The notes below the pieces were generated by a model, which worked only from the letters and a program-made list of their open reading frames with translations, had not been told where the DNA came from and searched no databases. A DNA stretch of 64,000 nt from Olsenella sp. An188 (lineage in GTDB: Bacteria > Actinomycetota > Coriobacteriia > Coriobacteriales > Atopobiaceae), in assembly GCF_002160255.1 (NCBI RefSeq), contig NZ_NFKF01000005.1:62001-126000 (forward strand). The letters are read 5' to 3'. The translations under genes were made by a program, and so were the position numbers. Shown here piece after piece: positions 15,494 through 62,360 of the stretch. Positions within the stretch are counted from its first letter, which is position 1. Each line of letters opens with the position of its first letter.

Positions 15494-17311
15494 ATGGCGG
15501 AAGCGGACGAGAAAAACGACGTGCCCGAGAGGGAGGAGCGCCCCGCCGACGGTGCCGCCGGCGGGGCGGACGCCGAGGGGGCGGGCGGCTTCGCCGCCGC
15601 GCGCCGCAGCGCCCAGGACCTTCTCGACGCCTGGTACGAGAGCGTGCGCGCCGACTCGGTCTACGACCGGCAGACGATCGGGATCTTTGGCGGGCGCCCC
15701 GACGGGGACTACTCCCTCAGCCGCGCGTCGCGGCTGGCGCGCATCGGGGAGATCGTCTCGATCGTGCGGCGCTACGACATCTTCCACGGGCTCACGCCCA
15801 AGGGGCTGCGCCGCATGCTCGAGGAGCTGGGGCCGACCTTCGTCAAGGCCGGCCAGATCCTCTCGATGCGCTCGGAGATCCTGCCCGAGAGCTTCATGCG
15901 CGAGCTCGGTCGGCTGCGGACCGAGGTCGAGCCGATGGGGCGCGACACGGTCCTGTCCGCCCTGCGCGCCGAGTACGACCGGCCCATCGAGGACATCTTC
16001 GACGCCATAGACGACCGGCCGCTCGGGTCGGCGTCGGTGGCGCAGGTCCACAAGGCGCGCCTCATCACCGGAGAGCTCGTCGCCGTGAAGATCCAGCGCC
16101 CGCACGTCCAGGAGATCATGGCGCAGGACATCTCCATCATGCGCTCGCTCGCGCGCTACGCGAGCCGCTTCATGGGCGACGAGCAGTTCCTCGACCTGCA
16201 GTCGGTCGTCGACGAGCTCTGGCAGTCCTTCCGGGAGGAGACCGACTTCCTCGTCGAGGCCCGCAGCCTCGAGGAGTTCAGGCGCAACAACGCCAGGTGC
16301 GCCTTCGTCGACTGCCCCAAGCCCTACCCGGCGCTCTGCACGCGCCACGTGGTGGTCATGGACTACGTCGAGGGCATCCCGATCAACGACTCCGCGCGGC
16401 TCGTGGCCGAGGGATACGACCTCGCCGAGATCGGCACCAAGCTCGCCGACAACTACACCTCCCAGATGCTCGACGACGGCTTCTTCCACGCCGACCCCCA
16501 CCCCGGCAACCTCGTGGTCCACGGGGGCAAGATCGTCTACCTTGACCTCGGCATCATGGGGAGGCTCTCGAGCCACGACCGCAGCGCCATGCGCGACATG
16601 GTGACGGCCGTGGCCGCCTGCGACTCGGCGGGACTCGCCGAGGGGCTCAAGCGCTTCTCCGTCTCCGACATGGGCGAGGTCGACCACGCGCACCTGCTCG
16701 CCGACCTCGACGCGATCGTGGCCGACTACGGCCTGGCCGACCTCTCGGATCTCGACGTGGGCGCGTTTCTCAACTCGCTCATCTCGATGGCGCAGAAGGA
16801 CGGCATCGAGCTGCCGAGCTCGGTGACGATGCTCGCGCGGTCGCTCGTGACGCTCGAGGGGACCGTGCACTCCCTGCTGCCGGGAACGTCGATCGTCGAG
16901 ATCATCCACGCCCACCTGCGCGCCCACGGCAGCGCCGGGGACCTCGCGCGGCGCGAGGGCGAGCGGCTCGCGCGCGAGGCCGTCGCCGCCACGCACGGCC
17001 TGCTCGGGGCCGCGAGCGACGCGGGGCTCGCGATGCGCATGCTCACGCGCGGCCAGCTGCGCGTCAATCTCGACCTCGCCGGGACGGCCGACCCGCTCGA
17101 GGACCTCGCGCGCATCGCCAACCGCCTCACGATGAGCGTCATCGTGGCCGGCCTGTTCATCGGCTCTTCGGTCGTCTACTACGCGCGCATCCAGCCGGTC
17201 ATCTTCGGCATCCCGATCATCGGCTTCCTCGGCTACCTCGCCGCCTTCGTGCTCGGCGTCTGGGTCGCGGTCGACATCATCCGCGAGAGCCGCCGACGCC
17301 GCCGCAGGTAG
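15494..17311 (+). CDS. AarF/UbiB/ABC1-family atypical kinase, membrane-anchored
   Basis: A 605-aa protein-kinase-like protein. The diagnostic KxGQ motif is in TFVKAGQILSMRSEILP (about 115-131). The Ala-rich nucleotide loop is GSASVAQVHKARL (about 178), the lysine is in VAVKIQRPHVQE, and the catalytic and metal motifs are HADPHPGNLVVHGG (about 333) and YLDLGIMGR. The last 70 residues hold two transmembrane helices (MSVIVAGLFIGSSVVYYARI, GFLGYLAAFVLGVWVAVDII), then a basic RRRRR end. In respiring bacteria UbiB supports ubiquinone synthesis or lipid handling; in this anaerobe-like background the role is unknown. It is coupled to the phasin-like gene, a pairing that hints at lipid or membrane work. 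Confidence 0.9.
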   Translation: MAEADEKNDVPEREERPADGAAGGADAEGAGGFAAARRSAQDLLDAWYESVRADSVYDRQTIGIFGGRPDGDYSLSRASRLARIGEIVSIVRRYDIFHGLTPKGLRRMLEELGPTFVKAGQILSMRSEILPESFMRELGRLRTEVEPMGRDTVLSALRAEYDRPIEDIFDAIDDRPLGSASVAQVHKARLITGELVAVKIQRPHVQEIMAQDISIMRSLARYASRFMGDEQFLDLQSVVDELWQSFREETDFLVEARSLEEFRRNNARCAFVDCPKPYPALCTRHVVVMDYVEGIPINDSARLVAEGYDLAEIGTKLADNYTSQMLDDGFFHADPHPGNLVVHGGKIVYLDLGIMGRLSSHDRSAMRDMVTAVAACDSAGLAEGLKRFSVSDMGEVDHAHLLADLDAIVADYGLADLSDLDVGAFLNSLISMAQKDGIELPSSVTMLARSLVTLEGTVHSLLPGTSIVEIIHAHLRAHGSAGDLARREGERLAREAVAATHGLLGAASDAGLAMRMLTRGQLRVNLDLAGTADPLEDLARIANRLTMSVIVAGLFIGSSVVYYARIQPVIFGIPIIGFLGYLAAFVLGVWVAVDIIRESRRRRRR

Positions 17312-17323
17312 CGCCCCCCCGGC

Positions 17324-17473
17324 GCACGGGCCCGATGCCCTTCTCGGCGTGCGGGGCTGACGTCCTTCTCGTCGTGCGGGCCCGACGTTCCCATCGCAGT
17401 GCGGGCCCGACGTCCTTCTCGCCGTGCGAGCCCGACGTCCTTCTCGCCGCGTGGGCCCGATGTCCTTCTCGGC
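17324..17473. repeat. 25-bp minisatellite, six tandem units
   Basis: Six consecutive 25-nt units begin at 17324, 17349, 17374, 17399, 17424 and 17449, each near GTGCGGGCCCGACGTCCTTC followed by TCGCC. Units differ by a few bases. Most units carry the TTCTCG motif. The array ends 13 bp before the element at 17487. No spacers, so not CRISPR. Confidence 0.9.
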
Positions 17474-17486
17474 GCGCAAAACGCCC

Positions 17487-17619
17487 GCGATTGGGTGGCA
17501 TCCTTTATGTAAGAAACTGATTTACTCACCATTCGTTCATAAAACGAACCATCTAATGACCATTCAAACGTAAAAATACTCCTTGCGATTCGAGAGCATC
17601 AAACATGCCGCCCAATCGC
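17487..17619. mobile_element. MITE-like element, copy A (133 bp)
   Basis: Terminal inverted repeats: GCGATTGGGTGGCATCCTTT on the left, and CATCAAACATGCCGCCCAAT plus CGC on the right. The interior is AT-rich (ACTGATTTACTCACC, then an AACGAA hairpin), in sharp contrast to its surroundings. The ends and the start of the interior match copy B at 22940. No ORF. It lies downstream of the UbiB gene. Confidence 0.8.
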
Positions 17620-17637
17620 CCGGACTTCGTGGCGAAA

Positions 17638-17760
17638 GGGGCCCGCGCCCGTGCGCGGCGAGAAGGACCTGCATCCGGGGTGGCGCCGCGCGGCGAGAGG
17701 GGCCCGCGTCCGTGCGCGTGGCGAGAAGAACCTGACGTCGGGGGTGGTGGCGCGCGCCAT
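17638..17760. repeat. Two tandem 61-bp units before argS
   Basis: Units start at 17638 and 17699. Both begin GGGGCCCGCG, then CCGTGCGCG, GCGAGAAG and ACCTG, and end with a GGGGTGG/GCGCGC stretch. They lie between MITE-like copy A and the argS leader. The rest of the spacer 17761-17843 holds the argS promoter area (TTGCTACACT) and GAAGGAGA ribosome site; I see nothing else in it. Confidence 0.75.
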
Positions 17761-17843
17761 TTGCTACACTTCTTTGGTCACCACCACCAAGATCAGCCAG
17801 ACGTCGCGCCTGCCGCCGCGCGGGGCGCGCAGAAGGAGAGACC

Positions 17844-19688
17844 ATGCCCGAGAAGATCGCCGAGCTCGTCCGCGCCGCCATCGCCGCCGCACAGGAGGCC
17901 GGTGAGCTGCCTCCCTTTGAGGTCGGCGACCTCGGCTTCGAGCGTCCCGCCGACCCGGCGAACGGCGACTGGAGCTCCACGGTCGCCCTGCGCTCGGCCA
18001 AGCTCGCCCGCCGCGCGCCGCGCCAGATCGCCGAGGCCATCGCCGCGCACCTCGCCGATGACCCCTCGGTCGAGCGCGTCGAGATCGCCGGCCCGGGCTT
18101 CATCAACTTCTACCTCGCCACCGCCTCGGCAAACGAGGTCTTCCGCACGGTGCGCGAGCAGGGCGCCGACTACGCCCGCTCGGACTTCGGCGCCGGCGAG
18201 AAGGTCCAGGTGGAGTTCGTCTCCGCCAACCCCGTGGGCCCGCTGCACATCGGCCACGGCCGCTGGGCGGCGCTCGGCGACTCGCTGTGCCGCGTGATGG
18301 AGCACGCGGGCTACGAGGTCGAGCGCGAGTACTACATCAACGACCACGGCTCGCAGATGGACGTCTTCGGGCACTCCATCTCCATGCGCTACCAGCAGCT
18401 GCTCGCCGTGATGGCCGAGCGCGGCTGCGAGCTGCCCGCCGCGCGCGAGGTGCTTCTCGCCGACCGCGAGGCGTTCGTGGCCGACGAGGGCGACTGCCGC
18501 CCCGAGACTCACCCGCTCACCGACGCCTTCAACGAGGCGCTGGGCGGCAACGCCTACGGCGGTGACTACATCGTCGACCTCGCCGTGCGCTTCGTGGAGG
18601 AGGACGGCGACGCCCACGCCGGCGAGGCCGAGGAGGAGCGCATGGCCACCTTCCGCGAGCGCGCCTACCTCTGGATGCTCGACTCCATCCGCGACACCTG
18701 CCACGAGGCCCGCTGCGACTTCGACGTGTGGTTCTCCGAGCGCAGCCTCTACGAGAAGGACGAGTCCGGCACCTCCGCGGTCGACCGCGCCCTGGCCAAG
18801 CTCGACGAGCTCGGCCACCTCTACCGCGACGAGGCGGGCGCGCTGTGGTTCCGCTCCACCGCGTTCGGCGACGACAAGGACCGCGTGCTCATCAAGACCA
18901 ACGGCGAGTACACCTACTTCGCCTCCGACGTGGCCTACCACTGGAACAAGTTCCAGCGCGTCGACCACGTGATCGACATCTGGGGCGCAGACCACCACGG
19001 CTACATCCAGCGCGTGCAGTCCGCCTGCGACGCCCTGGGCTACCCCACGCAGTTCGAGGTCCTTCTCGGCCAGCTCGTGAACCTGCTGCGCGACGGGGCG
19101 CCGGTGCGCATGTCCAAGCGCAAGGGCACGATGGTCACCTTCGACGAGCTCCTCGCCGAGGTGGGCGCCGACGCCACGCGCTACACGCTCATCTCCAAGA
19201 GCTCCAACCAGATGATCGACTTCGACATCGAGCAGGCCAAGCGCCAGGACAACACCAACCCTGTCTACTACGTGCAGTACGCGCACGCGCGCATCTGCTC
19301 GATCCTGCGCCGCGGCGCGGGCGTCACGCTCGAGGAGGCCGAGGCGCTCGGCATGGACGAGGTGGCCGCGCGCGCCGTGGGCGAGGGCTACGACCTGGGC
19401 CTGCTCACCGACGCCTCCGAGGCCGCGCTCGCCCGCAAGCTCTCCGAGCTCCCGGGCCTGGTGGAGAGCTGCGCACGCGACCGCGCGCCGTTCCGCCTCA
19501 CGCACTACGCCGAGGAGCTCGCTGGCGAGTTCCACTCGTTCTACGCCGCCTGCCAGGTGCTCCCCGGCAAGGGCCGCCCGATGGACGAAGCCCTCTCCCG
19601 CGCGCGCCTCGCCGCGTGCGACGCCACGCGCCGCGTGCTCGCCCTCACGCTCGGGCTCGTCGGCGTCTCCGCCCCCCAGAGCATGTAG
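17844..19688 (+). CDS. argS: Arginyl-tRNA synthetase
   Basis: A 614-aa class I aminoacyl-tRNA synthetase that charges tRNA-Arg. The N-terminal Add-1 domain ends in IAGPGFINFYLA. The catalytic HIGH-type motif is NPVGPLHIGHGRWAALGD (about 128-145), followed by YYINDHGSQMDVFG. The arginine and adenylate regions are GEYTYFASDVAYHWNK and DIWGADHHGYIQR. The KMSKS-type loop is MSKRKG (about 422), and the C-terminal anticodon-binding helical domain contains the SYVQYAH-like NPVYYVQYAHARICSIL. AGAAGGAGA precedes the ATG. Length is somewhat above the usual 550-580 because of an acidic insert (about 220-260). Confidence 0.97.
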   Translation: MPEKIAELVRAAIAAAQEAGELPPFEVGDLGFERPADPANGDWSSTVALRSAKLARRAPRQIAEAIAAHLADDPSVERVEIAGPGFINFYLATASANEVFRTVREQGADYARSDFGAGEKVQVEFVSANPVGPLHIGHGRWAALGDSLCRVMEHAGYEVEREYYINDHGSQMDVFGHSISMRYQQLLAVMAERGCELPAAREVLLADREAFVADEGDCRPETHPLTDAFNEALGGNAYGGDYIVDLAVRFVEEDGDAHAGEAEEERMATFRERAYLWMLDSIRDTCHEARCDFDVWFSERSLYEKDESGTSAVDRALAKLDELGHLYRDEAGALWFRSTAFGDDKDRVLIKTNGEYTYFASDVAYHWNKFQRVDHVIDIWGADHHGYIQRVQSACDALGYPTQFEVLLGQLVNLLRDGAPVRMSKRKGTMVTFDELLAEVGADATRYTLISKSSNQMIDFDIEQAKRQDNTNPVYYVQYAHARICSILRRGAGVTLEEAEALGMDEVAARAVGEGYDLGLLTDASEAALARKLSELPGLVESCARDRAPFRLTHYAEELAGEFHSFYAACQVLPGKGRPMDEALSRARLAACDATRRVLALTLGLVGVSAPQSM

Positions 19689-22939: not shown

Positions 22940-23071
22940 GCGATTGGGTGCGTCTCTTTATATGAGAAATTGATTTATAGTCAATCGAAGCTAAATAGCG
23001 ACAGATTACGTTCAATCGAACGTAATCGTGGTCCCCATCTTACTTTCGCATCAAACTTGACACCCAATCGC
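22940..23071. mobile_element. MITE-like element, copy B (132 bp)
   Basis: Left end GCGATTGGGTG, right end CACCCAATCGC preceded by CATCAAACTTGA. The interior begins TTTATATGAGAAATTGATTTA, cognate to copy A, and contains a strong hairpin ATTACGTTC/GAACGTAAT. AT-rich and non-coding within a very GC-rich region. Confidence 0.8.
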
Positions 23072-30155: not shown

Positions 30156-30208
30156 GCGCGAGGTTCTTCTCGCCGGTCCGGGCGTGCGTGTCCCGGCGCA
30201 AACCGGGT

Positions 30209-30269
30209 GCGGTTGGGTGGCATCCTTGATATGCGGCCGTTCCCCGCATCAAGGATGCCACCCAGTCGC
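30209..30269. repeat. Short palindromic member of the GATTGGGTGG family, copy C (61 bp)
   Basis: Left arm GCGGTTGGGTGGCATCCTTG and right arm CAAGGATGCCACCCAGTCGC, meeting over ATATGCGG, CCGTTC and CCCGCATC. It is the element reduced to its two ends. It is followed by CGGCCGTTTCGTGGC, the outer flank typical of the family. Confidence 0.85.
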
Positions 30270-30330
30270 GGCCGTTTCGTGGCAGGAACGGTCGCGCTGC
30301 CGCCGCGAGGGGATTTGGGGCCGTGACGGG

Positions 30331-30424
30331 CATCAAGGATGCCACCCAACCGCGCGGGGTTCGTGACGGATTCGCTCCGGCGAGAAGCGCGACGGGGGCA
30401 AGACGCCCAATCGCCCCGGTTTCG
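30331..30424. repeat. 94-bp inverted repeat, left copy (D)
   Basis: It starts CATCAAGGATGCCACCCAAC and ends CAATCGCCCCGGTTTCG. It is the reverse complement of 31745-31838 with only two mismatches over 94 bp. It contains two direct sub-units of the form CCCAAYCGC followed by GG and TTCGTG, i.e. two element outer ends. Together with its partner it encloses the nuclease-like gene. The spacer 30425-30645 is locally AT-richer (GAAGAAGTTAGAGACATCAA) and presumably holds that gene's promoter. Confidence 0.9.
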
Positions 30425-30645
30425 TGGCGCGCGGCCGACCCGCCCCTCGTCGTGTTCTTATCGTGAAGAAGTTAGAGACATCAAAATAGAGATTGAGACA
30501 ATGATGCGCAAGTGACGGGCGCGCGGCCCTTGAGCTGCCAAGACGCAATCTTCCAGCACGCTTGCACGAATCTATCGGCTGACTCCGTCCGCGCGGATCG
30601 GCAAAAGGCCCTATCGTTCGCGCAACCGAGGGAGAGGAGCCGGAC

Positions 30646-31713
30646 GTGGGCGAGAGGCTGTGTGTGGGATTCGAGAGCGCACGTGCCCTGTGGCGGGAGG
30701 TGGGTCATGCGGTCGCGGGGGACAACGAGGCGTCGGAGGGCCGGGCCCCGCTGCTCGTGAGAATCCTTTTCGAGGACGGCGCGGGCATCGACCTGAGGTC
30801 GCTTCCCTCGCGCACGAGGATCACCTCGGTTCCGGGGAGCGTGCGCGCCCGCGCGCTTCTCGCCCTGCGTGACGCCTACCCGGGGCTGGGGCCCGAGGTC
30901 GACGCGTGCGTGTCGCGGCAGTCGGGCCGCCATTGCGTCCGGGGCGCCCGGCTGCATCTCGTGACGGGGAGCTATCCCGCCGGCTCGTTTCGCCTCCTGG
31001 GCGAGGGGGTCCAGCTGGCCTCGCCCGAGCTCACGTTCCTGCAGCTCGCGCGCTCGCTTGACGAGGACCTGCTCGTCGCCTACGGGTACGAGGTCTGCGG
31101 CCTCTTCGCGCGCGACGCGGCCGGCCCGGGTTTCTGCAACTGCCCCGCGCTCACCTCGCGCGCCCGGATCGCGGACTACCTCGACCGCCTCGAGCGGGTG
31201 CGCCGGGAGCGGGGGGAGGGGATGCCCCCGGGGCTTCGTCGCGCGCGCCGGGCCCTGGAGCGCGTGCGTGACGGCGCGGCCTCGCCCGAGGAGGCGGTCG
31301 TCTCCGAGGTGCTCTTCTCGCCGAGGAGGCTGGGCGGGTTCGGGCTGCCGCCCGGCCGGCTCAACGCCGTCGTCCGGCTGAGCCGGACTGCAGCCGACCT
31401 CTTTGGCATGGGCTCATTCGTCTGCGACGTGAGCTGGGACGGGGCGCGCGTGGCCCTCGAGTACCAGGGCTCCCAGCACAAGCTACGCACGCGCCACACG
31501 TACGACCTGCGCAAGGGAAACGTGCTCGGTGCCGACGACCGGGTCGTGGTCAGGGTGGACCGCACGATGCTCGGACGCCAGGACCTCATGGAGGAGGTGG
31601 CGAAGTCCCTCTACCGGACGCTCGGGCTGCGCTGGCGCGAGCCGGACGCAGACGTGCGGACCCGTCAGATGCGTCTGCGCCGCAAGCTGCTGCTCGAGCT
31701 CGAGGGACGCTAG
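30646..31713 (+). CDS. Predicted PD-(D/E)XK-like (DUF559/Vsr-type) nuclease-domain protein
   Basis: I cannot name this 355-aa protein. The N-terminal part (about 1-120) has beta strands (PLLVRILFEDGAGIDLRSLP, RLHLVTGSYPAGSFRLLGEG). A conserved-looking SPELTFLQLARSLDEDLLVAYGYEVCG (about 126-153) follows, then a Cys-containing FCNCPALTSRARIADYLDR and an Arg-rich helix. The C-terminal 110 residues resemble DUF559/Vsr endonuclease folds: CDVSWDGARVALEYQGSQH (D, then E-x-Q-G-x-x-H), HTYDLRKGNVLGADDRVVVRVDR and a closing helix. E-Y-Q replaces the more usual E-x-K/D. The GTG start has GGGAGAGGAG upstream. It is a single gene bracketed by 94-bp inverted repeats; I infer it may act on, or travel with, the palindromic family. 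Confidence 0.65.
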   Translation: MGERLCVGFESARALWREVGHAVAGDNEASEGRAPLLVRILFEDGAGIDLRSLPSRTRITSVPGSVRARALLALRDAYPGLGPEVDACVSRQSGRHCVRGARLHLVTGSYPAGSFRLLGEGVQLASPELTFLQLARSLDEDLLVAYGYEVCGLFARDAAGPGFCNCPALTSRARIADYLDRLERVRRERGEGMPPGLRRARRALERVRDGAASPEEAVVSEVLFSPRRLGGFGLPPGRLNAVVRLSRTAADLFGMGSFVCDVSWDGARVALEYQGSQHKLRTRHTYDLRKGNVLGADDRVVVRVDRTMLGRQDLMEEVAKSLYRTLGLRWREPDADVRTRQMRLRRKLLLELEGR

Positions 31714-31744
31714 GGCCGGCGCGGCGCCGGTGGGGCGGATGCCG

Positions 31745-31838
31745 CGAAACCGGGGCGATTGGGCGTCTCGCCCCCGTCGCGCTTCTCGCCGGCGCGAATC
31801 CGTCACGAACCCCGCGCGGTTGGGTGGCATCCTTGATG
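31745..31838. repeat. 94-bp inverted repeat, right copy (E)
   Basis: Reverse complement of 30331-30424, 92 of 94 positions identical by hand alignment. It begins 32 bp after the nuclease-like gene stops. The following spacer 31839-32050 holds copy F, and I see no gene in it. Confidence 0.9.
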
Positions 31839-31900
31839 CCCCTTGCCAGGGGATGGGCCCGCATCGGCTTTCCGGGGGCGCTTCTGCCACAAAAGCGGCC

Positions 31901-31959
31901 CGGTTGGGTGCCATCCTTGATGCGAAGGACGATCGCACATCAAGGATGGCACCCAACCG
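31901..31959. repeat. Short palindromic member of the family, copy F (59 bp)
   Basis: Left arm CGGTTGGGTGCCATCCTTGA and right arm TCAAGGATGGCACCCAACCG, with TGCGA/TCGCA inner pairing. The change GTGGC to GTGCC on the left is matched by the compensating change on the right, so the palindrome is preserved. Confidence 0.85.
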
Positions 31960-32050
31960 CACCCGGTTTGCGCCGGGGTGGGGCGCTGTCGCGACAGGGA
32001 TGCCGTCCCGACCGCGCGCGGGGGAGAAGCGCGGGCGAGAAGCGCGGCGG

Positions 32051-38110: not shown

Positions 38111-38137
38111 GCCACTTCCTCAGGCCTGGCGAGAAGA

Positions 38138-38172
38138 ACGGCGGGGTCGGCGCGTTGCCGGCCCCGCCGTCG
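38138..38172 (+). terminator. GC hairpin after asd
   Basis: ACGGCGGGGTCGGC (38138-38151) pairs with GCCGGCCCCGCCGT (38157-38170), one G-U pair, 5-nt loop. There is no T-run, so efficiency is uncertain. Confidence 0.6.
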
Positions 38173-38260: not shown

Positions 38261-38395
38261 GGCGATTGGGTGGCATCCTTGATACGCGACCTCGCGGCGC
38301 GAGGTTCTTCTCGCCCCTCTGGCAGCGTTTTCCCAGTTGGCGGCTGTCACGGAACGCCATGGCAAGCGAGCGCCATCAAACATGCCACCCAATCG
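38261..38395. mobile_element. MITE-like element, copy G (135 bp), possibly chimeric
   Basis: Left end GCGATTGGGTGGCATCCTTG, right end CATCAAACATGCCACCCAAT plus CGC, as in copies A and B. The interior differs: it carries GAGGTTCTTCTCGCC and an 18-mer GTTTTCCCAGTTGGCGGC (38326-38343) also found inside the element at 41057. It occupies the convergent spacer between asd and the M42 peptidase; there is no gene in 38111-38503. Confidence 0.75.
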
Positions 38396-41056: not shown

Positions 41057-41178
41057 CGAGTGCGCGATATTCGGCGTGAGTTTTTCAAGTTTACCGACAC
41101 AAACCCGAAGTTTTCCCAGTTGGCGGCAAGGAGCGTAGGCCCGGGGCCAAAGAGAAACCTTCGAATTTCGCGCACTCG
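41057..41178. mobile_element. Second MITE-like element type (122 bp)
   Basis: Terminal inverted repeats: CGAGTGCGCGATATTCG at the left and CGAATTTCGCGCACTCG at the right (one internal mismatch). The interior is AT-rich, non-coding, and contains the 18-mer GTTTTCCCAGTTGGCGGC (41110-41127) shared with copy G at 38326. It lies between the tRNA terminator and the nuclease gene; nothing else is visible in 41009-41292 apart from a GAAGGAGGAC ribosome site. Confidence 0.7.
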
Positions 41179-47132: not shown

Positions 47133-48689
<1,557 letters not shown>

Positions 48690-48712
48690 GCGAGAAGAAC
48701 CTGTAGCTGGGG

Positions 48713-60644: not shown

Positions 60645-62360
60645 ATGACATCCATCACACCTGCCGCGCGGGAGTACTTCCGCGCCTTCTACGACCACAA
60701 CCGCGCCCGCTTTGTGGCTGCGCTCGTGCTCACGGTGCTTGACATCCCGTCGGCGCTCATCGGATCGTGGCTGCTCGGAGAGATCATCGACGTCATCTCC
60801 ACCGGCGACCTCGGCCGGCTTCAGGTTCTTCTCGCCTTTGGCATCGTGTTCACGGTGGTTGCGTTTGCGATCAGCGTTGGCATGTACCGCGCCAAGTCTG
60901 ACTTTGTGTGCCGAGCGCTCGTAAACTACAAGTCGCTGGCGTTCAGGCGGCTCTCCGAGAAGAGCATCCGCGCCTTTTCGCGCGAGAACACGGGCAGCTA
61001 CCTCAGCCTGCTCACCAACGACGTGGCCTCCATCGAGGAGGGCTATCTCAAGCGGTCGTTCATTTTGATATATCACGTGCTGCTCTTCGTAGGCACGCTC
61101 GCGATGATGCTCTTCTACAGCGTGCCGCTGACGCTGGCGGCCGTGGTGCTCTCGCTGCTGCCGCTCGTGGCGTCCGTGCTCATGGGCCGCGAGCTCACCG
61201 TCCGCGAGCGTGCCGTGTCCGACCGCAACGAGGCCTTCGTCTCCGAGCTGCGCGACCTCTTGGCCGGGTTCTCCGTCATCAAGAGCCTCAAGGCCGAGGC
61301 GCAGGCGCGTGGCCTTTTTGACGTGGCGAGCGGGACGGCCGAGGAGGCAAAGCGCGCCCGCTACTGGTGGGACTGCCTGATCACGGCGGTCTCCAGCAAC
61401 CTGTGCTCGATGGTGCTGCAGTTCGGCGTGTTCTTCATCGGCGCGTGGCTCGCCATCGAGGGGCAGATCACGGCCGGCACCGTGCTCATCTTCGTGAACC
61501 TATGCAACTACCTCATCCAGCCCATCAACATCGTGCCGCAGTACTGGGCAAGCCGCCAGGCCGCCGCGGGCCTGGTTAAGAAGCTGGCTGCTGCCACGCG
61601 CGAGAACGCGGAGCGCGCGGGCGAGAAGATCGAGCCGCGACTTGAGCGGGGCATCGAGGTCTCCGACGTGACCTTCGGCTATGTGCCCGGCGAGCCCGTG
61701 CTGCGCGACGTTTCCCTGGAGTTTGCAGCCGGGCGCAGCTACGCGGTGGTGGGCGCCTCCGGGTCCGGCAAGTCCACGCTGCTCAACCTTTTGATGGGCG
61801 GCTACGACGGCTACGAGGGGTCCATTGCGATCGACGGCCACGAGCTGCGCGACGTGGAGGCCGGCAGCCTCTACGACCTCGTGAGCCTCATCGACCAGAG
61901 CGTCTTCCTCTTTGACGACACGATTCGCGCCAACGTCACGATGTTTCGCAACTTCCCGGACGAGGCGGTGGACGACGCCGTGCGCCGTGCCGGCCTTGCG
62001 GAGCTTGTGGCCGAGAAGGGCGCTGACTTCCGCTGCGGCGAGAACGGCGCGCTGCTCTCCGGCGGCGAGCGGCAGCGCGTGTCGATTGCGCGGGCGCTTC
62101 TGCGACGCACGCCGGTGCTTCTGGTGGACGAGGCCACGGCGGCGCTCGACAACCAGACGGCTCGCGCGGTGGGCGAGGAGATCTTGGGCCTCGAGGGGCT
62201 TACGCGCGTGGTGGTGACGCACCGCCTCGAGGCGTCGCTGCTCGCGCGCTACGACGAGGTCGTGGCCCTGCGCGACGGGCGCGTGGTCGAGCGCGGCACC
62301 TTCGACGAGCTCATGGCCGCCCGCGGGTACTTCTACGCGCTCTTCACGGTGAGCGGATAG
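60645..62360 (+). CDS. ABC exporter (transmembrane and ATPase domains fused)
   Basis: A 571-aa half-transporter. Residues about 20-300 form six helices (FVAALVLTVLDIPSALIGSWLLG, LLAFGIVFTVVAFAISVGM, FILIYHVLLFVGTLAMMLF, LTLAAVVLSLLPLVASVL, MVLQFGVFFIGAWLAIEG and the next). The ATPase has Walker A AVVGASGSGKSTLLNLL (about 368), Q-loop LIDQSVFLFDDTI, signature LLSGGERQRVSIARALL (about 469), Walker B VLLVDEATAALDNQTA and VVTHRLEA. Such proteins export lipids, drugs or peptides as homo- or heterodimers; no peptidase domain is present. GGGGAGAG precedes the ATG. Flanked by copies 2 and 3 of the 27-bp palindrome. Confidence 0.93.
   Translation: MTSITPAAREYFRAFYDHNRARFVAALVLTVLDIPSALIGSWLLGEIIDVISTGDLGRLQVLLAFGIVFTVVAFAISVGMYRAKSDFVCRALVNYKSLAFRRLSEKSIRAFSRENTGSYLSLLTNDVASIEEGYLKRSFILIYHVLLFVGTLAMMLFYSVPLTLAAVVLSLLPLVASVLMGRELTVRERAVSDRNEAFVSELRDLLAGFSVIKSLKAEAQARGLFDVASGTAEEAKRARYWWDCLITAVSSNLCSMVLQFGVFFIGAWLAIEGQITAGTVLIFVNLCNYLIQPINIVPQYWASRQAAAGLVKKLAAATRENAERAGEKIEPRLERGIEVSDVTFGYVPGEPVLRDVSLEFAAGRSYAVVGASGSGKSTLLNLLMGGYDGYEGSIAIDGHELRDVEAGSLYDLVSLIDQSVFLFDDTIRANVTMFRNFPDEAVDDAVRRAGLAELVAEKGADFRCGENGALLSGGERQRVSIARALLRRTPVLLVDEATAALDNQTARAVGEEILGLEGLTRVVVTHRLEASLLARYDEVVALRDGRVVERGTFDELMAARGYFYALFTVSG

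Follow-up and report, generated by a model that had tools for sequence, protein, structure and literature searches.

Mirrored modules of helically phased sites around a nuclease-like gene in Olsenella sp. An188: a candidate protein–repeat partnership resembling REPIN/RAYT

Results

The locus and its inverted repeat

The window analysed here, meaning the whole stretch of 64,000 nucleotides from Olsenella sp. An188 (positions 62,001 to 126,000 of contig NZ_NFKF01000005.1), contains a gene for a 355-amino acid (aa) protein and a family of short palindromic elements that flank this gene and recur elsewhere in the genome. The host genome comprises 2.14 Mb in 16 contigs and belongs to a group of gut bacteria, its named kin being Olsenella and Thermophilibacter. 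An earlier note, made from the letters of the window, had described near-identical 94-bp inverted repeats with one gene between them. Both statements were confirmed: 30331–30424 is the reverse complement of 31745–31838 apart from 2 mismatches in 94, and a single open reading frame on the plus strand (30646–31713) is the only gene enclosed by the arms. The 94-bp segments form the best-kept portion of a larger, gapless 261-bp inverted repeat found by inverted-repeat search, with a left arm at 30192–30452 and its mirror at 31717–31977 (79% identity). When inverted repeats of the window with arms up to 3 kb apart were ranked, two pieces of the 261-bp repeat led (125 nt at 90% and 99 nt at 83%), the next unrelated pair being 51 nt long at 71%.

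Each arm carries three 21-bp sites with the consensus GATTGGGTGGCATCCTTGATG, in an order that is mirrored between the arms. The left module reads plus, 36 bp, minus, 84 bp, minus, with an outer site at 30211–30231 (+), an inverted site 36 bp on at 30247–30267 (−) and a third site a further 84 bp, or eight helical turns, on at 30331–30351 (−). The right module reads plus, 84, plus, 36, minus, from the inner site at 31818–31838 (+) through 31902–31922 (+) to the inverted outer site at 31938–31958 (−). A longer profile built from 66 arms showed a second, weaker unit about 64 bp farther out, and inspection by eye suggested a dyad, GCCAcaAA..TTGGGTGGC, on the inner side.

Predicted fold of the protein

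From the reading frame, predicted models, fold matches and Pfam, the 355-aa protein is predicted to combine an AbiEi-like N-terminal domain (approximately residues 1–208) with a nuclease fold of the Vsr/DUF559/EDxHD type (approximately residues 212–328). The full model, based on an alignment of 21 relatives, had a mean predicted local distance difference test (pLDDT) score of 91. Foldseek alone gave no match below 1e-3 for the full or the N-terminal model, and the fold statements made here rest on Z scores from a second structural aligner. With the latter, residues 212–328 of the predicted model matched the homing endonuclease I-Bth0305I with Z 9.9 over 96 residues (2.7 Å), and the same list included NGO0050 (Z 8.4) and Vsr (Z 7.4). 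At the sequence level, DUF559 matches were found in 13 of the 21 relatives at E ≤1 (best 1.2e-5), the window protein alone giving E 0.095, below the Pfam cut-off, and a PADLOC homing-endonuclease model was matched by 3 of the 21 (best 3.8e-4). A profile search of solved structures returned weak rows, namely two sliding clamps at E 0.03, taken as chance, and 3r3p at E 0.92. E272, H278 and D287 are invariant in the 21 sequences and D261 is kept in at least 90% of them; by the motifs of the family, these four residues would be catalytic. The C-terminal resemblance to a nuclease that the earlier note had proposed is thus upheld by the fold comparison and weakly by sequence, the predicted C-terminal fold being that of a nuclease.

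The N-terminal model alone (pLDDT 90.7) had as its best two rows the AbiEi antitoxin of Strep. agalactiae (6y8q, Z 6.9 over 122 residues) and Rv2827c (1zel, Z 4.9), both below 8. No AbiEi family appeared among the Pfam rows for the 21 relatives. The alignment starts at residue 64 of AbiEi and residue 94 of Rv2827c and so covers mainly the part after the winged helix, with domain limits taken in part from PMC7319586.

Dispersed elements in the host genome

A 23-mer searched with up to 3 mismatches matched 46 places in the 2.14-Mb genome, and the reversed pattern matched none. In the fetched stretches of the host genome, 81 sites (≤6 mismatches) grouped into 33 elements including the gene's two modules, so that at least 31 elements exist besides these; the figure of 33 is a lower bound, pattern places such as those near C10:265151 and C15:96250 lying outside the fetched stretches. 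All 45 inverted pairs in the host genome face inward and none outward, at spacings of 26, 36, 89, 99, 108–110, 120, 130–132 and 142 bp. The best period for these spacings was 10.50 bp (R 0.966 for the 45 pairs, pairs from the same element not being independent). This phasing was also found in four other species, with R 0.963 for 39 inverted pairs and R 0.965 for 12 same-strand pairs, again with no outward pair, using the places listed, which are the full set in G001, G002 and G005 and 35 of 114 in G008. Because the sites are phased at 10.5 bp, recognition would be of double-stranded DNA, and we infer proteins lying on one face of the duplex rather than bound to RNA or to a folded single strand.

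All 33 host elements fall between called genes, in 12 convergent, 18 tandem and 3 divergent gaps. The background of gaps of at least 180 bp in the same stretches, which takes in the element-bearing gaps, consists of 21 convergent, 49 tandem and 16 divergent ones. Intergenic status and the control genes used below depend on a codon-usage caller written for the analysis and not on annotation; the family genes that this caller overlooked or truncated were placed instead by a six-frame profile search.

Within the window, the claim of at least five other palindromes holds only when those inside the arms are counted. The dispersed family is real, and beyond the gene flanks it is represented in the window by just two clear elements, an inverted pair at 17489–17617 in the intergenic region 17311–17844 and an element at 38264–38394 downstream of asd, along with a degenerate single site at 23049–23070 (+).

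Orthologues and the livF–thrB locus

Family homologues were present in all 31 genomes examined from the genus, with 6–17 in each at E ≤0.001. A clear orthologue of the gene (57–65% identity) was found in 14 genomes besides the host, and three more carry one at 34–39% identity; the host has one copy, its six other matches being distant paralogues at 28–38% identity. Fifteen of the 17 named orthologue loci (L117–L133) sit between livF and thrB, all in the same orientation, and there the neighbouring genes are about 78–95% identical compared with 34–65% for the orthologue itself. At L121 and L130 (the latter a partial gene), the orthologue and its modules adjoin serC/serA rather than livF–thrB. 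Genomes G016 and G017 have the orthologue beside serC and short livF–thrB gaps (297 and 316 bp), and the match in G016 begins only at residue 139, this copy looking partial. No family gene was detected between livF and thrB in 15 genomes, G016 and G017 among them, and the gap could be measured in 14 of them, 13 being 112–451 bp long and that of G022 779 bp, with a resemblance by eye to a gene remnant.

Inverted left–right repeats surround most orthologues, with differing letters. Most sites around the closer orthologues fit a single gapless skeleton, nnnTGGG(N8)TTGATG; two of the three distant orthologues are without a well-fitting skeleton site, and the third has two that fit less well. Modules of three sites reappear around many orthologues, at pitches of 36/84, 46/52, 46/83 and 36/105, some flanks holding fewer than three scoring sites. 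Across the orthologue flanks the letters evidently change more than the geometry.

By eye, many of the gene-less livF–thrB gaps (L168–L182) contain palindromic pairs of other motifs, for example GGGTATGTACAC in G003 and GGGTATGTGCAC in G015, which gives the impression of competing families making use of one gap.

Co-variation of protein and site, and copy number

Distances between sites, measured outside the skeleton, correlated with protein distances (r 0.71) at the 10 usable of 18 orthologue loci, the rest having fewer than three scoring sites or being located elsewhere. The correlation persisted in a partial Mantel test on the same loci after removal of the LivF, LivG, ThrB and ThrC distance (r 0.61, p 0.0009).

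A generic site pattern occurred 3, 4, 8, 8, 17, 21, 29, 37, 37, 38, 38, 44, 99, 105 and 114 times in the 15 carriers of the orthologue, 2, 3 and 3 times in the three genomes with a distant orthologue, and 0 (nine genomes), 1, 3, 4 and 6 times in the 13 genomes without one; the reversed control gave 0 or 1. The comparison of 15 with 13 genomes, which excludes the three with distant orthologues, was significant at p 6.5e-6 (p 1e-5 when these three are counted as carriers). With patterns in their own letters, the host had 55 matches and G029 had 27, compared with 17 and 4 for the generic pattern, to which their letters conform less closely. Among three genomes that are about 95% identical at livF–thrB, G016 and G017, which have the orthologue, showed 38 and 37 matches and G021, which does not, showed 6. 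The number of palindromes therefore tracks the presence of the gene (3–114 in the 15 carriers, 0–6 in the 13 non-carriers), a relation that the earlier note had proposed to check, and in none of the 13 orthologue-free genomes are they abundant.

Element places across species

Matches to a species' own site seed were found in the 55–64 kb blocks of each of eight genomes, and reversed seeds gave none in all eight. The blocks of the seven relatives (55–63 kb) have eight such places that are not at the gene, of which seven are elements and one is a single site, and all eight fall in the same three intergenic regions in which the window has a site. Downstream of asd, five of the seven relatives have an element in their own site letters at the same place as 38264–38394. 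In the region 17311–17844, an element is present in G005 and a lone site in G001, both in the letters of the species concerned and upstream of the same gene (the G029 block stops short of this region). The intergenic region of the site near 23049 contains, in G008, a complete element in that species' own letters.

Copies at unrelated places were also seen, two element cores at unrelated loci sharing 88% identity across 108 bp and two element units sharing 87% across 285 bp. At the places compared, which included the asd gap of several species, entire intergenic stretches differ between close relatives. The likeness of the two arms was greater within than between species in some genomes and not in others, and since this pattern is mixed no claim of concerted evolution of the arms is made.

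In L118 (13310–13590) and L125 (15490–15905), the flanking genes are very similar and the DNA between the stop codons downstream of asd is wholly different, with own palindromes in each gap. In G020, which is without the orthologue, an element near L268 4530–4640 is almost identical to the one at host C1:366675 in a region otherwise 86% identical, and was perhaps shared with the host by transfer.

Paralogues and homologues outside the genus

The flanks of 52 family genes from six genomes, in which such genes had been catalogued completely, were scored for left–right inverted repeats with a genus-wide motif masked; a 53rd gene, L247 at a contig end, was left out. Other genes in the same DNA stretches served as controls. 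Twenty of the 52 family genes reached at least 40 bits compared with none of 283 control genes (Fisher p 2e-18), and none of the 66 controls with intergenic DNA on both sides reached this score; at 35 bits the numbers were 25/52 and 3/283. The arms of the best 26 family genes were mostly distinct sequences, some being common to related paralogues such as L218 and L223. At least three repeated 11-mers on both sides were present in 12/52 family genes and 1/283 controls, and the softer count of at least two gave 27/52 and 46/283.

The host genome holds a second gene–repeat pair, the motif GGTGTACACGATGCG having 18 matches in the host compared with 0–2 in each of the 30 other genomes and 0–2 for the reversed control. 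Its copies lie in pairs 93–94 bp apart at five other loci, as well as beside the paralogue to which it belongs. At L044 6465–8268 (host, C16 near 30 kb), a paralogue lies inside a 218-bp inverted repeat that is 93% identical and contains GGTGCGGGC units. The family as a whole occurs in 152 of 246 genomes sampled from the class, genus members included. As a separate observation, L215 and L247 of G028 are two copies of one family gene, equal in score and both disrupted in frame, that lie far apart on one chromosome.

Other repeats in the window

The motif GGCGAGAAGNAC occurs 22 times in the 64-kb window compared with 0.05 expected (for example at 17412–17423, 30163–30174, 38128–38139 and 48689–48700), and GGCGAGAAG has 55 matches, 22 of them inside the 14% of the window called intergenic. 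The GGCGAGAAGNAC/GGCGAGAAG motif is also present in and around elements of several species and is not the site of any one paralogue. At 41057–41178, a palindromic pair CGAGTGCGCGATATTCG ... CGAATTTCGCGCACTCG, 105 bp apart (ten helical turns), lies outside the family studied here, and no copy of it was present in the other host-genome stretches searched.

Discussion

A protein and its sites

The 355-aa protein very probably binds the 21-bp sites: a protein that reads the sites is the simplest account because they flank its gene, co-vary with it and depend on it for their copy number. According to the mechanism proposed here, an AbiEi-like and Vsr/EDxHD-type protein would recognize the 21-bp site, and the inverted, helically phased arrangement would bring several protein copies onto one face of the DNA, bridging the two arms of an element. 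The gene would be held at one locus between its mirror-image three-site modules, other modules lying in intergenic DNA elsewhere, and site and protein would drift together, giving private site sequences in each species and for several paralogues within a genome. The nuclease domain, in the use judged most likely, would nick or cut bound elements, and repair templated by another copy or by incoming allelic DNA would copy elements into place and keep them alike. The outcome would be an arrangement like REPIN/RAYT with a different enzyme and double-stranded recognition.

Cutting by the protein, and with it the spread or homogenization of the elements, is put forward tentatively, at a shade under an even chance. 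For the full proposal, in which gene and palindromes form a cis–trans pair with private site letters and a nuclease-driven spread of the REPIN/RAYT kind, we consider the case evenly poised. A broader version is possible, although we would lean against it: that AbiEi–Vsr fusion nucleases, several per genome, have private alphabets of phased palindromes that they bind, cut and have copied by repair, in a homing of non-coding modules, with rival families replacing each other in the same intergenic sites.

Several observations weigh against these proposals. In the predicted model, pLDDT falls below 50 at residues 278–281, the stretch that holds the invariant H278; two mitochondrial-ribosome chains at Z 9.0 stand beside the nucleases in the fold list; and the match to AbiEi, at Z 6.9, is modest and leaves the winged-helix part of AbiEi uncovered. 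Generic site matches are few in four genomes with the orthologue (G012 3, G029 4, G013 8 and G027 8), among which the genome-wide recount in own letters covered G029 alone (27 matches). Site seeds cross-match within groups of relatives and hardly between groups, so that the letters are not all distinct. No target-site duplication or clean empty site was seen at the compared element copies, the asd site or the serC site, the last of which differs by rearrangement around a tRNA gene. The kept element places are explained at least as well by a fixed role in regulation or structure as by active spread, and 6 of 14 testable G029 elements are at places shared with the host genome, as judged by hand with two further elements at contig ends excluded. 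Since only these six lie where the host has an element, turnover is also real, and the places appear partly kept and partly turned over.

The extent of the pairing is a further point on the same side. About half of the family genes in the six genomes of the genus lack arrays, and outside the genus 1 of 20 tested loci passes 40 bits, two more reaching 38.9. Because only this one passes, the pairing of gene and array seems to be an elaboration of this lineage, and with about half of the genes in the genus and 19 of 20 loci outside failing the flank criterion, the partnership does not extend to every member of the protein family. The earlier note had proposed to test whether homologues are flanked by inverted palindromes and had named their absence in most genomes as contrary evidence: flanking holds for most orthologues and for 20 of the 52 family genes, and the absence is found in part, at 19 of 20 loci outside the genus and for about half of the genes inside it.

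Other explanations

A regulator or DNA-architecture protein is the likeliest of the alternatives, and we regard it as doubtful though substantial. The phased sites would repress the protein's own gene and organize or insulate intergenic DNA, the nuclease being rarely or otherwise used and no mobility being involved; elements would be held at fixed places by selection, their letters following the protein. The exact helical phasing, the conservation of places though letters changed and the AbiEi-like fold agree with this, AbiEi antitoxins being described in PMC7319586 as autoregulating through inverted repeats at close pitches. A regulator fits less well with modules that lie downstream of the gene too and in convergent gaps (12/33, with just 3/33 divergent), with a range of 3–114 pattern matches among the orthologue genomes, with copies of whole elements at unrelated loci and with the invariance of catalytic-type residues. 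Taken together, the nuclease fold with kept residues, the copies at unrelated places and the counts of 3–114 favour spread by cutting and repair, the kept places and the strictness of the phasing speak for a standing nucleoprotein role, and both roles may hold.

It is improbable that the gene and its two mirror modules form a transposon-like mobile cassette of which the dispersed elements are non-autonomous derivatives. The orthologues and modules beside serC/serA at L121 and L130, together with the short livF–thrB gaps of G016 and G017, speak for a cassette, but 15 of 17 orthologues are at one locus, the single host copy is accompanied only by six distant paralogues (28–38% identity), no target duplication was seen and the serC site gives no clean empty site. 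Phage and plasmid collections gave no match, which counts against a cassette and led a phage or plasmid origin to be rejected.

Chance placement of the gene between copies of an unrelated dispersed repeat has very little left in its favour: some paralogues and most homologues outside the genus are unflanked, but the idea is largely contradicted by the enrichment over 283 control genes, by motifs that differ between paralogues, and by site–protein co-variation and gene-dependent copy number. The invertible 1.5-kb segment raised in the earlier note, with recombination between arms that are 98% identical over 94 bp, is just as remote and finds no support because the gene has the same orientation in all 15 livF–thrB orthologues, the arms moreover being far less alike in several other species.

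Comparison with known systems

REPIN/RAYT systems (also TnpA-REP or REPtron) are described in PMC3116915 and PMC8266576 as pairing each repeat family with a single gene that is inherited vertically and has the repeat in its flanks, with dispersed extragenic inverted doublets and co-evolution of protein and repeat. The system described here is like them in that the repeat flanks its gene, the dispersed doublets are extragenic and inverted (33/33 elements intergenic, all inward), and protein and repeat co-vary with a vertically inherited gene, 2 of 17 orthologues being at another locus. It differs in that the protein is predicted to be AbiEi-like and Vsr-like rather than a Y1 HUH transposase, in that its 21-bp sites form phased groups of up to about 160 bp suggestive of double-stranded recognition, and in that two mirror modules of three sites each surround the gene. 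No Y1 HUH transposase (PF01797) was found in the host genome by a search that matched 5 of 14 control genomes. The system is REPIN/RAYT-like in its working but not a member of that class. What the earlier note had envisaged, a partnership of this type with a different fold, is supported as regards the mostly fixed locus, the flanking arrays, copy number, co-variation and the lack of any Y1 match in the host genome, and does not extend to the protein family as a whole.

AbiEi antitoxins of the AbiE type IV toxin–antitoxin systems, and Rv2827c, bear a modest resemblance in fold to the predicted N-terminal part of the present protein (Z 6.9 and 4.9) and have inverted repeats of similar length and pitch near their gene. 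According to PMC7319586, AbiEi antitoxins autoregulate through paired inverted repeats of 23 bp whose gaps, 3 or 13 bp, differ by one turn. The resulting pitches of 26 and 36 bp equal the two short pitches found here, a parallel that is suggestive and not a test because the site limits are differently defined. In contrast to AbiE, the gene stands singly between livF and thrB, without a toxin gene or AbiEii operon beside it, the protein has an extra nuclease domain, and its sites lie to the left and right of the gene as well as scattered elsewhere. Vsr, DUF559 proteins and the EDxHD homing endonuclease I-Bth0305I share the predicted nuclease fold and the conserved D/E/H/D residues, but here the gene is free-standing and intergenic between full-length livF and thrB, with no intron or interrupted target, and has site arrays in its own flanks. 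Miniature inverted-repeat transposable elements with a parent insertion sequence are likewise short, dispersed and non-coding with inverted ends; they differ from the present elements, at which no target duplication was seen and whose gene is mostly at a fixed locus. Of transposases, the Y1 type was looked for in the host genome and not found, and other transposase families were not searched for.

Within a partial coverage of the literature, no paper was found that connects nucleases of the DUF559 or AbiEi-like kind with repeats, whether flanking or dispersed, in line with the earlier note's statement that such a partnership was undescribed. Work on repetitive extragenic palindromic sequences with Coriobacter- was judged unrelated. 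A protein–repeat partnership of the kind proposed here seems to be undescribed, and it lacks the feature that defines REPIN/RAYT.

Should the proposed partnership prove true, families of intergenic palindromes would not need a HUH transposase, and a comparable system would be driven by a fold familiar from enzymes of repair, restriction and homing. With 6–17 family members in each of the 31 genomes examined, and a number of protein–site pairs that have diverged in step, the genus would provide a natural data set on the evolution of DNA specificity in this fold, and the phased geometry gives concrete predictions for binding.

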